This document shows, piece after piece, positions 16,986-28,638 of a stretch of 64,000 nucleotides of DNA. Source of the stretch: Thermocoleostomius sinensis A174 (GTDB lineage: Bacteria > Cyanobacteriota > Cyanobacteriia > Elainellales > Elainellaceae). The number at the start of each line of letters is the position of its first letter. The stretch's first letter is position 1. A program made the position numbers and the translations under genes. The notes beneath the pieces were generated by a model. It was not told where the DNA came from, did no database searches, and saw only the letters and a list, made by a program, of their open reading frames with translations. The stretch covers positions 783,026-847,025 of the forward strand of contig NZ_CP113797.1 in the NCBI RefSeq assembly GCF_026802175.1. Reading direction: 5' to 3'.

Positions 16986-17786
16986 ATGAAACGTCAACTG
17001 CGCCACCTGGTTCGTCTGTCAGGAACGCTGATTTCAGTGTATTACGCCCACATGTTAGAGTATCGGGCCGAGTTATTTTTTTGGGTGTTATCTGGCAGTT
17101 TGCCATTTATTTTGATGGGGGTTTGGGTTGAGGCGGCTGAGGGAGGGCAGTTTGGCTTATCGTCGCTTGAGTTTGTACGCTATTTTTTGGCGGTGTTTTT
17201 GGTGCGGCAATTTACGATCGTTTGGGTGATTTGGGACTTTGAGCGCGAAGTTGTGGAAGGGAAACTGTCCTTTCGATTGCTGCAACCGCTCGATCCAATT
17301 TGGCATCACCTATCTTCTCACTTTGCTGAACGGTTTGCCCGGCTACCATTTTCCTTCGTTTTGGTGGCGCTATTTTTCTGGCTTTACCCGGATGCTTTCT
17401 GGTTTCCCAACCTGTCAAGTTTGCTGTTGTTTGTGCTGGTAGTGTTCCTGGCATTTGTGCTGCGATTTGTCACCCAATATGCCTTCTCGATGCTGGCGTT
17501 TTGGATGGAACGGGCTAATGCGATCGAATCGTTTTGGTTTTTGCTTTACCTATTTTTGTCAGGCATTGTAGCTCCGCTGGAAATTTTTCCGCCTGCGGTG
17601 CGTCAAGTGGTGGAATGGACACCATTTCCCTACATGATTCATTTTCCTGCCAGTCTTTTAGTGGGCTTACCGACCGATTTTTGGCGCAGTTTGATGATTA
17701 TGCTGGGTTGGATTTTGTTCTTTACCCTTTTAAATCGAGTGTTGTGGCGGCTAGGATTAAAGCGATATTCCGGGATGGGCGCATAA
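16986..17786 (+). CDS. ABC-2 type transporter permease (DUF990-like)
   Basis: The 266-residue protein starts with a short basic head and has about six hydrophobic helices (about 20-40, 55-75, 110-135, 140-170, 180-205, 230-250). The fold follows the ABC-2/DUF990 pattern (YYAHMLEYRAELFFWVLSGSLPF, FVRYFLAVFLVRQFTIVWV). Such proteins are the membrane half of exporters. Neither an ATPase nor a second permease lies next to it, so partners are elsewhere. The MBOAT gene follows 54 bp downstream in the same direction; a shared role in exporting or modifying surface material is possible but unproven. Confidence 0.8.
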   Translation: MKRQLRHLVRLSGTLISVYYAHMLEYRAELFFWVLSGSLPFILMGVWVEAAEGGQFGLSSLEFVRYFLAVFLVRQFTIVWVIWDFEREVVEGKLSFRLLQPLDPIWHHLSSHFAERFARLPFSFVLVALFFWLYPDAFWFPNLSSLLLFVLVVFLAFVLRFVTQYAFSMLAFWMERANAIESFWFLLYLFLSGIVAPLEIFPPAVRQVVEWTPFPYMIHFPASLLVGLPTDFWRSLMIMLGWILFFTLLNRVLWRLGLKRYSGMGA

Positions 17787-17840
17787 CTGCTTGAAAGAGT
17801 TGGACATAATAGCGATTTTTGGACAATTGAAGAAACTAAC

Positions 17841-19442
17841 ATGCTGTTTAACTCGGTTGAGTTTATTGTTTGGTTTTTGCCAGCAACACTGCTGCTTTTT
17901 TTTCAAATTGGCAGATTTGGTTATTATCGTTTAGCCATCGCTTGGTTATTTGCAGCCTCACTAATTTTCTATAGCTGGTGGAATCCCATCAATTTAATTG
18001 TTCTCATTGGCTCTATTCTATTTAATTTTGCTATTGGTGCAGGACTTAGTCGATCGCCGCTTCACTCAAGCCTGAAACAAGCTGGATTAGCACTAGGAAT
18101 TGGATCAAACTTAGCGCTAATCGGATATTTCAAATACGCAAGTTTTCTGGCTGAAACTACTAATGCAGTTCTTCAAACAAATTTTTACTTAGGCGAGATT
18201 ATTTTACCATTAGGAATCTCGTTTTTTACCTTTCAGCAAATTGCCTATCTAATTGATAGCTATCGTGGCGAAGTGACATCTAGCTATACCTTACTAGATT
18301 ATTGCTTATTCGTAGCATTTTTCCCTCAACTGATTGCAGGTCCACTCTTGCACCACAAAGAGATTATTTCTCAATTTACTAATAAATCTATCTTTCAAAT
18401 TCAACCGAATAATTTTGCGATCGGCTTAACCATTTTTGCCATTGGATTATTTAAAAAAATTGTTTTTGCGGATACTGTTGCGGTTTATGCTAACCAAACG
18501 TTTGCGACCGTAGCCGATGGTGAATTGTTGACTCTGATTGAAGCTTGGATTGGGGCACTTTCCTATAGCTTACAGCTTTACTTTGATTTTTCTGGCTATT
18601 CTGATATGGCGATCGGTCTTGGCAAACTATTTAATTTACAACTACAAATTAACTTTAATTCGCCCTACAAAGCTACTAGCATAATTGACTTTTGGCGGCG
18701 CTGGCACATTACTTTATCGAATTACTTACGTGACTATCTCTACATTCCCTTGGGTGGCAGTCGCAAAGGCAACGTTCGCCGCTATATTAACTTAATGATC
18801 ACAATGGTGCTGTGCGGCTTGTGGCATGGGGCTGGATGGACATTTATTATTTGGGGTGGTCTACAGGGCGTTTATTTGCTAATTAATCATCGGTGGCGAT
18901 CGCTGCAACCAACCGAGTTAGAGACAGCGCTACAACACCCTCTATGGCGACATACAAGCCATTGGTTGATCACATTTGTTGCCGTTGTTGTAGGGTGGGT
19001 AATTTTTCGTGCACCCAATCTGAATATTGCAGTGGAAATGCTGAAGAGTATGGCCTGTTTTAATGGCATCTCTTTACCCGAATCATTTCAATCAGATCTT
19101 TTACAGACTTTGGGGTTTCAATTTGAGGGTTGGTTGCCGAATTTGTCGATCGAAATTGAGCAGTTGGATGATGTCAATGAAGTAGAACCTGCAATGATTT
19201 TTACAGTGCTAGCCATACAATTCATCGTGGTACGATTTCTGCCCAATACTCAACAGTGGATGAATTATGACGCATCCATATCTGAACAAGTATCTAATAT
19301 TTCGATTTTTTTTCAACAGCAATTTCAAAAAACATGGCACTGGCAACCAACTCAATTTTGGGCAATTGTTACGGCTCTAATGACGGCAACTGCATTGCTG
19401 AATCTCGCTAAAGTCAGCGAGTTTTTATATTTTGAATTTTGA
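17841..19442 (+). CDS. MBOAT family O-acyltransferase (AlgI-like)
   Basis: The 533-residue polytopic protein has the AlgI/DltB-type MBOAT core: LGISFFTFQQIAYLID, FFPQLIAGPL, YFDFSGYSDMAIG, the WRRWHITLSNYLRDY block, and the active-site histidine in CGLWHGAGWTFIIWGGL. These enzymes pass acyl groups (usually acetyl) across the membrane to polysaccharides or teichoic acids. Codons are A+T richer than in neighbouring genes. The gene is followed after 41 bp by an SGNH-like protein, the usual partner that completes transfer on the outer face. The acceptor is unknown. Confidence 0.93.
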   Translation: MLFNSVEFIVWFLPATLLLFFQIGRFGYYRLAIAWLFAASLIFYSWWNPINLIVLIGSILFNFAIGAGLSRSPLHSSLKQAGLALGIGSNLALIGYFKYASFLAETTNAVLQTNFYLGEIILPLGISFFTFQQIAYLIDSYRGEVTSSYTLLDYCLFVAFFPQLIAGPLLHHKEIISQFTNKSIFQIQPNNFAIGLTIFAIGLFKKIVFADTVAVYANQTFATVADGELLTLIEAWIGALSYSLQLYFDFSGYSDMAIGLGKLFNLQLQINFNSPYKATSIIDFWRRWHITLSNYLRDYLYIPLGGSRKGNVRRYINLMITMVLCGLWHGAGWTFIIWGGLQGVYLLINHRWRSLQPTELETALQHPLWRHTSHWLITFVAVVVGWVIFRAPNLNIAVEMLKSMACFNGISLPESFQSDLLQTLGFQFEGWLPNLSIEIEQLDDVNEVEPAMIFTVLAIQFIVVRFLPNTQQWMNYDASISEQVSNISIFFQQQFQKTWHWQPTQFWAIVTALMTATALLNLAKVSEFLYFEF

Positions 19443-19483
19443 GTTTTTTGATGAAGCGCCGCAAACATTAGCGGAGGTATAGC

Positions 19484-20515
19484 TTGGTTACTTCCTACTT
19501 AAAAACCTACTTTAAAGTGCTCATTTTAATTCTACTCACGGTTGGATTAATCAATCTCGCTATCGATCCGTTATGGTATGGACAGGGCAATCGCTTAACC
19601 GGTATTAATCCACCCTGGAACGAACGCATTTCCAAAACAAATTTACTGTTACAGCAGCCACCCTCAACTTGGAATTGCTTAATTTTTGGTACATCCCGAA
19701 CCACCCTTTTGGATGTCAATGACTTTAAAACCGATCGCTGTTTCAATTATTCATTTAGTGGTGCCAAAGCTGAAGAACTAGTCACCTATGCCACGTATGC
19801 CAAACAAAAGGGAATTCAACCGCGAACTGTCTATGTAGAAATTGAGCCAGATGAATTAAGCCAAAAACGTAAACCTAAAGATTTTCCAGCCATTACTGAT
19901 CCAATTCCTCGCTACAAGGCGTATTTCTTTTCCTTTGATAGTTTGTGGTTGTCCATTAAAACACTGATACGGGGCTATGACTTTGCTCGGTTGTACGATC
20001 GTATGTTTCAGGTTCATGTATCAGAAAACGCGCCAAAATATGAACCCAAGCTGTTAAAAGATGATGAACGAAAGCAATGCGATTTGTCGCGAATTCGCTT
20101 CTATGAATCTTTAAAGACAATCTTTCCTGATGCTCGATTTGTGGGGTTTGTAGCTCCAGTTTCCGGTTGGTACATTTTTAACAAAAGCTATTCATCAGGG
20201 TTGATGAAGTGTCAACTAGCGGGAATTCATCGGCTTAGCTCCGTCTTTGATGTAGTGTATGACTTTGCCATACCCTCGGCACTAACCACCCGAACTGATA
20301 ACACCTATGACGGTAATCACTATTACCCCGAAGTGTTTGATCAACTGGCATTGGTGTTGCAACAACCCTCACAATGGCAACTATCACACCCTGACAACAA
20401 GACGGTTGGAATTGTGGTTAATCAGTACAATGTGACCGACTATCAGCAGCTTTATGCAGCGCGACTACGCAACTTTTTGGTGCAAATTGGTGAAGCAGAA
20501 TATTGGCAAGGTTAA
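19484..20515 (+). CDS. SGNH/GDSL-like membrane-anchored partner of the MBOAT protein
   Basis: The 343-residue protein starts at TTG 19484, 7-8 bases after GGAGG. An N-terminal anchor (VLILILLTVGLINLAI, residues about 12-27) is followed by a periplasmic domain. GTSRTTLLDV (about 69-78) matches the nucleophile block seen in AlgJ/AlgX/DltD-like proteins, and NTYDGNHYYPEVFDQLA (about 280) gives the Asp-x2-His pair. This suggests a serine-hydrolase-fold acetyltransferase accepting acyl groups from the upstream MBOAT protein. The assignment rests on motif spacing and gene order; overall similarity to named families is low. Confidence 0.7.
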   Translation: MVTSYLKTYFKVLILILLTVGLINLAIDPLWYGQGNRLTGINPPWNERISKTNLLLQQPPSTWNCLIFGTSRTTLLDVNDFKTDRCFNYSFSGAKAEELVTYATYAKQKGIQPRTVYVEIEPDELSQKRKPKDFPAITDPIPRYKAYFFSFDSLWLSIKTLIRGYDFARLYDRMFQVHVSENAPKYEPKLLKDDERKQCDLSRIRFYESLKTIFPDARFVGFVAPVSGWYIFNKSYSSGLMKCQLAGIHRLSSVFDVVYDFAIPSALTTRTDNTYDGNHYYPEVFDQLALVLQQPSQWQLSHPDNKTVGIVVNQYNVTDYQQLYAARLRNFLVQIGEAEYWQG

Positions 20516-20529
20516 AGTGGGAGGATTGA

Positions 20530-21006
20530 CTACACGCCCAAAAACTCAAAGAAACCGTCGTCTAGCTCATAGCCCAACATCTGGGTCATAAATTTGAGTT
20601 GGCTGTAACGAAGGTTCCCTTGCTGTTTCATCCAGTCCATCAACACAAATACCTTGTGCATCATGAAAATTTCCAGCGCCTCTGGGTTGAATTGAATGCC
20701 TTCCGGGCTAAATTGATGGGGAACTAACATGGCGGCGTAGCGGGCTAACTCGCCGGACTCCCAGTTCAGTAAGATTGGTAGCCAGGGATAGCGAGCATCA
20801 AGGCGCACAAACCACAGACGAATTTCAGGAATTTCGGAAAGCTCTCGCGGATCGGTAGCATCGCGAGGATAATCTAGCTCGAAGCGAATTTCTTGTTCGT
20901 GAGTGGCGATCGATCCGGCTTGTTGCCATTCATTCAAAATTGTTTCGACGGGCGAAAGATCCAGCGTATTCAATTGATCGGCATTGAGTGTAATGGTGGT
21001 TGTCAT
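20530..21006 (-). CDS. CRR6 family protein (DUF1817), NDH-1 assembly factor
   Basis: The 158-residue soluble protein matches the CRR6/DUF1817 pattern as I remember it: IRLWFVRLDARYPWLPILLNW, ELARYAAMLVPHQFSPEGI, a helix-rich C-terminus and the acidic end LDDGFFEFLGV. In plants and Synechocystis CRR6 is needed to mature and assemble the NdhI subunit of the photosynthetic NDH complex. The gene is convergent with the SGNH-like gene (14 bp apart). NdhN, another subunit of this complex, is encoded at 35 kb. The family name is from recall. Confidence 0.72.
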   Translation of the reverse strand: MTTTITLNADQLNTLDLSPVETILNEWQQAGSIATHEQEIRFELDYPRDATDPRELSEIPEIRLWFVRLDARYPWLPILLNWESGELARYAAMLVPHQFSPEGIQFNPEALEIFMMHKVFVLMDWMKQQGNLRYSQLKFMTQMLGYELDDGFFEFLGV

Positions 21007-27639: not shown

Positions 27640-28638
27640 ATGACCGTTTGTCCCAATTGCAATCACCATAACCCAGACGAAGCAGTTCATTGCGAGGCTT
27701 GTTTTACGCCTCTGCCACAGGAAATGCACTGTCCTAGCTGTGGTGCCATGGTACAGTCTGATGCGAGTTTTTGTGGGCAATGTGGTTTTCATTTGCAGGA
27801 TGCCACCCAAAGCAATGCTGTGCCGTTGCCTCCTACTGTAGCCGTATCTCCAGATAAAGCTCCTCCTACTGTTCCCATTCAGCCACCAGAAAGTTTACTT
27901 GAAAATACGGTTTATTCAAGCAGTTCAACGTCTTCCAGTTCCCCGTTGCCTTCAACTGTTACAGCCCCCAGAAGTTCACCCTCTGGTGAAGAGGGTGCAA
28001 CCGTGTCTGCACTACCACCCATCCTTGCGGCACCTGTTCCTAATTTGTCACCCGATCTTCCCCAATTGCCCCCCGAACCGATCGTAGAACCTGATCCACT
28101 CGCTGCTGAAATAGAGATGTCGTCTAATTCTGAAATTAATTATTCTTCGTCAATTCCGCCCCAAGAAACTGGTGGAATTGATACGTCTAAACCTTCTTTG
28201 CCCCACGAAGCTGCATCTCAGCCTCCTAACTCACCCCCTTCAACGGTTTCACCTCCGACGGTCGCCCAAGCTCCAATTTCCTCCGCCCCATCTCAAACGA
28301 TTCTGCAAACGCAGGTAGCACGGTTGCTGCATGTTCAAACAAATACGCCTGTAGAATTGCCGTCGAATTTAACAGTTGTTCATATCGGTAAGCCAAACGA
28401 TCGGGTTCCACCAGATGTTGATGTGTCTGGGTTCCCAAGTTCCGAAATTGTCTCCCGTGTCCATGCTGATATCCGTATTGAAGGAGACTCCTACTTCATT
28501 GAAGATGTGGGTAGTGCTAATGGGACATACATCAATAATTTGCCACTACCGTCAGGCAATCGCCATCGCTTACGTCCTGGCGATCGAATTGCGCTAGGGA
28601 AAGGAGATAAAGTTACGTTTTTGTTTCAACTTTCCTAA
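27640..28638 (+). CDS. Zinc-ribbon FHA domain protein
   Basis: The 332-residue protein has two N-terminal zinc ribbons (CPNCNHHNPDEAVHCEAC at 3-20 and CPSCGAMVQSDASFCGQC at 31-48). A long Pro/Ser/Thr linker (about 60-225) follows. The C-terminal FHA domain has the phosphothreonine-binding motifs IHVGK-like VVHIGKPNDR, SEIVSRVHADIRIE and the DVGSANGTYIN loop. It should bind phospho-Thr proteins, linking to Ser/Thr kinase signalling. GGAGAG lies upstream of the ATG. A second FHA gene follows 150 bp downstream on the same strand. Confidence 0.9.
   Translation: MTVCPNCNHHNPDEAVHCEACFTPLPQEMHCPSCGAMVQSDASFCGQCGFHLQDATQSNAVPLPPTVAVSPDKAPPTVPIQPPESLLENTVYSSSSTSSSSPLPSTVTAPRSSPSGEEGATVSALPPILAAPVPNLSPDLPQLPPEPIVEPDPLAAEIEMSSNSEINYSSSIPPQETGGIDTSKPSLPHEAASQPPNSPPSTVSPPTVAQAPISSAPSQTILQTQVARLLHVQTNTPVELPSNLTVVHIGKPNDRVPPDVDVSGFPSSEIVSRVHADIRIEGDSYFIEDVGSANGTYINNLPLPSGNRHRLRPGDRIALGKGDKVTFLFQLS

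Follow-up and report, generated by a model that had tools for sequence, protein, structure and literature searches.

A probable MBOAT-SGNH O-acylation cassette for a surface glycan in Thermocoleostomius sinensis A174

PatA and PatB, the best-studied pair of their kind, combine a membrane-bound O-acyltransferase (MBOAT) that ends in an FxYxxF motif with a separate SGNH partner; PatA acetylates itself on a tyrosine of its C-terminal hexapeptide, PatB takes the acetyl group from that peptide, and the catalytic residues of PatB come in the order Ser133, His305 (PMC12148441). In alginate acetylation, the MBOAT AlgI is combined with the outer SGNH-like partners AlgJ and AlgX for the modification of an exopolysaccharide, and in AlgX residues D174 and H176 precede S269 (PMC4148444). 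In teichoic acid D-alanylation by DltB and DltD, the shuttle motif is carried by a microprotein, DltX, where it is given as FXYXXF and described as common to such MBOATs (PMC12148441). Here we describe two adjacent + strand genes (positions 17841 to 20515) in a stretch of 64,000 nucleotides, called the window below, of the 5.81-Mb single-contig genome of Thermocoleostomius sinensis A174. We conclude that they are probably a self-contained MBOAT-SGNH O-acylation pair that acts on a surface glycan and was acquired as a cassette. The machine is of a known kind, and its outer half belongs to a family that is unnamed in Pfam and NCBIfam.

Composition and conservation of the pair

The MBOAT gene (17841 to 19442, 533 amino acids [aa]) and the gene for its SGNH-like partner (19484 to 20515, 343 aa) are the second and third of three + strand open reading frames (ORFs) in a row, the first of which encodes an ABC-2 permease (16986 to 17786, 266 aa; PF06182, ABC2_membrane_6, E = 4.1e-17). 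The gaps are 54 bp between the permease and MBOAT genes and 41 bp between the MBOAT and third genes. An earlier note on this DNA had described three rightward genes with short gaps, which the ORFs and the matches to PF06182 and PF03062 bear out, and had suggested that all three could form a surface-glycan acylation and export unit. The acylation half of that proposal is supported, with surface-glycan acylation the best explanation of the conserved pair, while the permease is a neighbor outside the cassette and no part of the conserved unit. The unit is the MBOAT gene plus the third gene, not three genes.

Homologs of the third gene are found in 9 of 60 relatives and in 16 of 388 genomes sampled from the class (both counts include the genome of the window). 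All 16 carriers have an MBOAT gene immediately upstream of it in the same orientation; the two genes are adjacent and co-conserved. Two fetched loci, L012 and L021, were treated as one organism and counted once. The distance between the two genes is 11 to 107 bp in the 15 carriers measured. In genome G385 both genes are frameshifted (L035:9414-11775), which reflects either a decaying copy or assembly errors, and in G010 the contig ends within the SGNH-like gene. A profile search of the 388 genomes adds 9 genomes with weak relatives (E values of 3e-9 to 3e-4); an MBOAT gene adjoins the weak relative in 8 of these, and the fetched locus of the ninth stops about 300 bp upstream of the gene. One genome, G123 (L117, L124), has two distant SGNH-like genes in tandem after a single MBOAT gene. 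The same MBOAT-partner arrangement is present on a plasmid of Priestia megaterium (E = 4.5e-37 with the profile, searched against a very small set). This megaplasmid is typed as non-mobilizable and is the sole plasmid record with a relative of the third protein; cyanobacterial plasmid records gave no match to it.

The inner half of the pair is an AlgI/PatA/DltB-like MBOAT that scores 115.2 bits with PF03062, where the cut-off is 27 (E = 5.3e-33). It resembles DltB both in model and in structure, with 166.5 bits to the DltB equivalog TIGR04091 and an E value of 7e-38 between the MBOAT profile and the solved DltB structure, but the model score is under the cut-off of 375 and the protein is not a member by score. 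The candidate catalytic histidine, His329 in a WHG motif (18825 to 18827), is invariant in 15 of 15 aligned MBOATs (all carriers except the frameshifted G385); we take the role of this residue to be that of the catalytic histidine of the MBOAT family. The protein ends in FLYFEF (19422 to 19439), in which F528, Y530, and F533 are likewise invariant in all 15, which places it in the FxYxxF acyl-shuttle subtype, with Tyr530 the expected acyl carrier (PMC12148441). The motif is thus fused to the MBOAT, in contrast to its position on DltX in the Dlt system. The only other MBOAT of this genome above the cut-off (around 1343255; L036:9390-10886) ends in YIYFDF, and in BLAST clustering none of its called neighbors joins the SGNH-like protein.

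The outer half begins at a TTG codon that follows, at a distance of 6 nucleotides, a GGAGG that is likely the ribosome-binding site (19473 to 19477, + strand). It consists of an N-terminal hydrophobic helix, a conserved stretch, Ser71 in GTSR, Asn88, and Asp276/His279. The GTSRT and DGNH motifs that the earlier note had pointed out are present at residues 69 to 73 (block I, 19688 to 19702, with Ser71 the presumed nucleophile) and at residues 276 to 279 (block V, 20309 to 20320). We aligned the partners from 14 of the 16 carriers, without the truncated G010 and the frameshifted G385, and then added 8 of 10 distant genes, with the G048 gene and the second G123 gene omitted. G69, S71, N88, and H279 are retained in all 22 close and distant members. 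Asp276 is kept in 13 of the 14 close proteins; of the 8 distant ones, 5 have Asp and 3 have Glu at this position. A block I serine followed in order by a block V Asp and His is the motif pattern of the SGNH superfamily. This Ser-before-His order is that of PatB and the opposite of that in AlgX. AlgJ and DHHW proteins presumably also have Asp/His ahead of Ser, an arrangement that the window protein does not have. Twelve residues between positions 24 and 53 are invariant in 14 of 14 close members. They form an N-DPLW-GN-N-ER-K-N stretch (19553 to 19642) right after the hydrophobic helix, which may be a segment that docks to the MBOAT.

Proposed mechanism and acceptor

By analogy with PatA, the MBOAT would draw an acyl group (acetyl is the most likely) from cytoplasmic acyl-CoA and load it onto Tyr530 in the FLYFEF tail at its own C terminus. 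The tail would then deliver the acyl group in the periplasm to the SGNH-like protein, which is anchored in the membrane and would accept it on Ser71, and a Ser71-His279-Asp276 triad would transfer it to a surface glycan at one of the hydroxyls. Our best guess for this glycan is an exopolysaccharide or an O-antigen-like polymer. We regard the mechanism class of the pair as fairly secure, and we infer its catalysis, acyl group, and substrate. Cyanobacterial exopolysaccharides have been described with ester-linked acetyl groups, in a survey that reports AlgI as not found in Synechocystis 6803 (PMC4594306). The pair offers a testable route to such groups.

The neighbors of the pair bear on the acceptor. 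We scanned 20 proteins from 12 of the 15 other carriers, 10 of them from four carriers and chosen for a glycan-related look (one of these 10 has no match of any kind) and 10 from the eight remaining carriers, and we give the result as simple counts. Glycan genes are near the pair in 5 of the 12 carriers. The neighbors are Wzz and Wzy_C in G025; Polysacc_synt (Wzx-like), Wzy_C, and a Wzc-like protein in G213; a sulfotransferase in G299; a glycosyltransferase about 6 kb away in G003; and one glycosyltransferase in G047. No alginate gene is among the scanned neighbors. Two observations count against the proposed explanation: the other carrier neighbors are mixed (gyrA, groEL, queA, thioredoxin, radical-SAM, and DUF proteins), and the pair in the window is outside any recognizable glycan cluster.

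The main rival keeps the same chemistry and makes peptidoglycan the acceptor, so that the pair would be an equivalent of PatA/PatB. The standing of PatA/PatB as the model for such pairs and the Ser-then-His order shared with PatB are in its favor, as are a protein with a peptidoglycan-binding domain encoded just downstream of the pair in G001 and the several carriers that have no glycan gene among their scanned neighbors. However, neither the window protein nor any of the 14 aligned members has a listed match to the PatB-type Pfam family (DUF459) at E ≤ 1, a pair that occurs as patchily as this one (16 of 388 genomes) is more readily expected to act on a variable surface polymer than on peptidoglycan, and glycan genes are nearby in 5 of 12 carriers. 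Its patchiness and apparent transfer (see below) also set the cassette apart from PatA/PatB. We therefore consider a peptidoglycan acceptor unlikely, and an exopolysaccharide or O-antigen-like polymer the better candidate.

Fold and family of the outer protein

No Pfam or NCBIfam model matches the third protein at E ≤ 1, and this includes DltD. The low likeness to AlgJ, AlgX, and DltD that the earlier note had remarked on agrees with this and with the lack of a significant sequence match in the PDB. The nearest named family is DUF1574 (PF07611), an uncharacterized family listed in the SGNH clan (PMC9487903). It is matched weakly over the block I region by 4 of the 14 aligned proteins (E values of 4.7e-5, 5.8e-4, 2.8e-3, and 0.049). 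All four are below the Pfam cut-off and the window protein is unmatched, and we rejected DUF1574 as the family of the partner.

The earlier note had also called for structure prediction of the third protein against SGNH folds. Two AlphaFold models built from two-row alignments resemble SGNH esterases and support the fold, which is likely but, with both models of low confidence (mean predicted local distance difference test [pLDDT] scores of 43.8 and 40.0), unproven; the models are good enough only for a statement on fold resemblance. With the first model, the best Foldseek match is a sialic acid esterase (E = 4.4e-3), and there are 0 matches at E ≤ 0.001. With the second, 9 matches are at E ≤ 0.001, of which 7 are esterase or acylhydrolase chains and 2 are designed scaffolds. 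Among its first 28 rows, 23 are acylhydrolase, GDSL, sialate esterase, platelet-activating factor (PAF) acetylhydrolase, or EstL5 chains, which we take to have the SGNH fold; the other 5 are designed scaffolds, and short-chain dehydrogenases come after. The widest sequence profile has as its best PDB match a PAF acetylhydrolase with block I in register (E = 0.095, which is not significant).

Several results pull the other way on an SGNH assignment. PDB searches with the protein and two profiles found nothing below E = 0.09, the best SGNH-clan score among the 14 aligned proteins is the DUF1574 score of 23.3 bits, below the cut-off of 29.1, and Lipase_GDSL is matched by only one of the 14, at E = 0.14. 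The block V Asp is missing in one homolog (G111). Besides the low pLDDT of the models, the SGNH-type Foldseek rows have query template modeling (TM) scores of about 0.25 to 0.41 and root-mean-square deviations of about 9 to 17 Å, and unrelated folds (CheY-like and MthK chains for the first model, short-chain dehydrogenases for the second) are also among the matches.

The same Foldseek matches could be read as indicating that the third protein takes groups off as an O-acetyl esterase instead of adding them as a transferase, since the structures nearest to the low-confidence models are mostly esterases. The fold is common to esterases and transferases, so fold matches are not decisive, and the constant pairing with an acyl-shuttle MBOAT and the N-terminal hydrophobic helix both fit a transferase. 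We consider the esterase reading quite improbable and retain that of an acyltransferase.

A separate scan for DUF1574 in 96 genomes gave 15 fetched loci, of which 11 have open frames of more than 600 aa and 2 have a called MBOAT next to them. At L132 and L140, loci of other cyanobacteria, the gene directly before an MBOAT codes for a large protein that matches DUF1574 at its C terminus; these large proteins are perhaps a second type of MBOAT partner.

Flanks and transfer of the pair

The pair is flanked by the permease gene and, on its other side, by crr6, which encodes an NdhI maturation factor (20530 to 21006, − strand; NF038024, E = 2.1e-69). Of 60 relatives, 52 have the permease (in one of them the match is weak; this count includes the genome of the window) and 57 have crr6. 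In five relatives (G003, G010, G013, G030, and G033) the permease gene and crr6 are convergent neighbors without the pair, at gaps of 72, 213, 30, 344, and 2 bp, whereas the window has 2743 bp between the two genes, with the pair inside. In four of these five (all except G013) the pair is on another contig. The five junctions are among 29 other fetched permease loci, and in the other 24 crr6 is outside the fetched flanks; with crr6 seen beside the permease in 5 of 29 loci, this gene order belongs to some close relatives (three genera) and not to the whole family. Most likely, the cassette was inserted between the permease gene and crr6. The reverse history, in which the pair was lost from an old permease-crr6 junction, retains some residual probability.

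Base composition distinguishes the pair in part. The earlier note had read its codons as A+T rich, hinting at acquisition. Among 43 non-overlapping window ORFs of at least 150 aa, the G+C content at third codon positions (GC3) is lowest for the MBOAT gene (0.327, z = −2.9) and third lowest for its partner (0.381, z = −1.75), while that of the permease gene is ordinary (0.488, z = +0.5). The G+C content is 0.40 across 18001 to 20000 versus about 0.50 in much of the window. Two points count against a foreign signature. The second-lowest GC3 (0.351) belongs to an unrelated ORF at 27640 to 28638, and divergence over all synonymous codons, a measure that depends on gene length, fails to single out the pair (0.080 and 0.075, versus 0.089 for the permease gene and 0.122 for crr6). 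The acquisition hint is probably right, with GC3, the pair-free sites, and the trees in its favor and the full synonymous-codon comparison not separating the pair.

The sites at which the pair is integrated mostly differ among carriers; G003 and G030, of one genus, share a site, and G025 and G213 share neighbors of the Wzz/Wzc and Wzy_C kinds. For the trees we used 14 of the 16 carriers, without G038 (partial rpoB) and G385 (frameshifts); the SGNH tree additionally omits G010 and has 13. The rpoB tree holds 23 of the 30 genomes searched, namely, these 14 carriers and 9 hand-picked non-carriers, all 9 from the family of the window's organism. On it, presence of the pair takes 6 changes, 4 of them forced by starred branches, and shuffled labels gave a number as low in 111 of 500 cases, so that presence is not clearly clustered. 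In the joined-pair tree of 14 carriers, grouping the seven carriers of the window's family as one is rejected by the approximately unbiased test (p-AU = 1.5e-7). Grouping G104 with G183 is also rejected (p-AU = 3e-11), although the two carry the same family label and are sisters in the rpoB tree (100/98). G025, which belongs to the window's family, instead groups with G047 and G213 of other families at 100/99.

Because the integration sites mostly differ and the pair tree rejects descent with host families, the sequences suggest that the pair was likely acquired and spread by transfer between species. Duplication followed by many losses is an alternative source of the conflict between trees, but the single copy per carrier and the presence in only 16 of 388 genomes make transfer the simpler explanation. 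In viral contigs, phage records, and a repeat search, the vehicle of this transfer left no sign, whether as an element, a relative in phages, or convincing repeats at the borders: 35 viral-contig stretches matched a pattern and 0 were confirmed, phage records gave no match at E ≤ 1e-5, and short repeats alone were found, none convincingly framing the pair.

That the permease, MBOAT, and SGNH-like protein together form one acylation and export unit is very improbable: their common strand, their short gaps, and the absence of any listed terminator-like site between the permease and MBOAT genes in the terminator prediction for the window would allow read-through from a permease promoter here, but the permease occurs in 52 of 60 relatives against 9 of 60 for the SGNH-like protein, the five pair-free junctions show the permease beside crr6 on its own, an MBOAT is in the flanks (up to 1.5 kb) of only 1 of 30 fetched permease loci, that of the window itself, and the GC3 of the permease gene differs from that of the pair. 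The three-gene operon was rejected as a conserved unit on these grounds, and the co-conservation of all three genes implied by the earlier note does not hold.

For the two-gene cassette, we tentatively suggest a wider meaning. The outer protein may found an undescribed family of its own among MBOAT partners, recognizable by N-DPLW-GN-N-ER-K-N, that moves together with its MBOAT as a portable cassette from one cyanobacterial family to another and even to Bacillota (one plasmid record) and lets the recipient redecorate an existing surface glycan. No paper on this pair was found by title or abstract opening, in a literature search whose coverage excludes most subscription journals. If the apparent spread of the pair across lineages is a guide, glycan acylation may be a trait of the cell surface that can be swapped.

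Predicted regulatory sites in the window show no excess over shuffled sequence (8 promoters versus a shuffle mean of 9.1, and 6 terminators versus 5.4). One terminator-like hairpin, at 19404 to 19421, lies within the end of the MBOAT gene.

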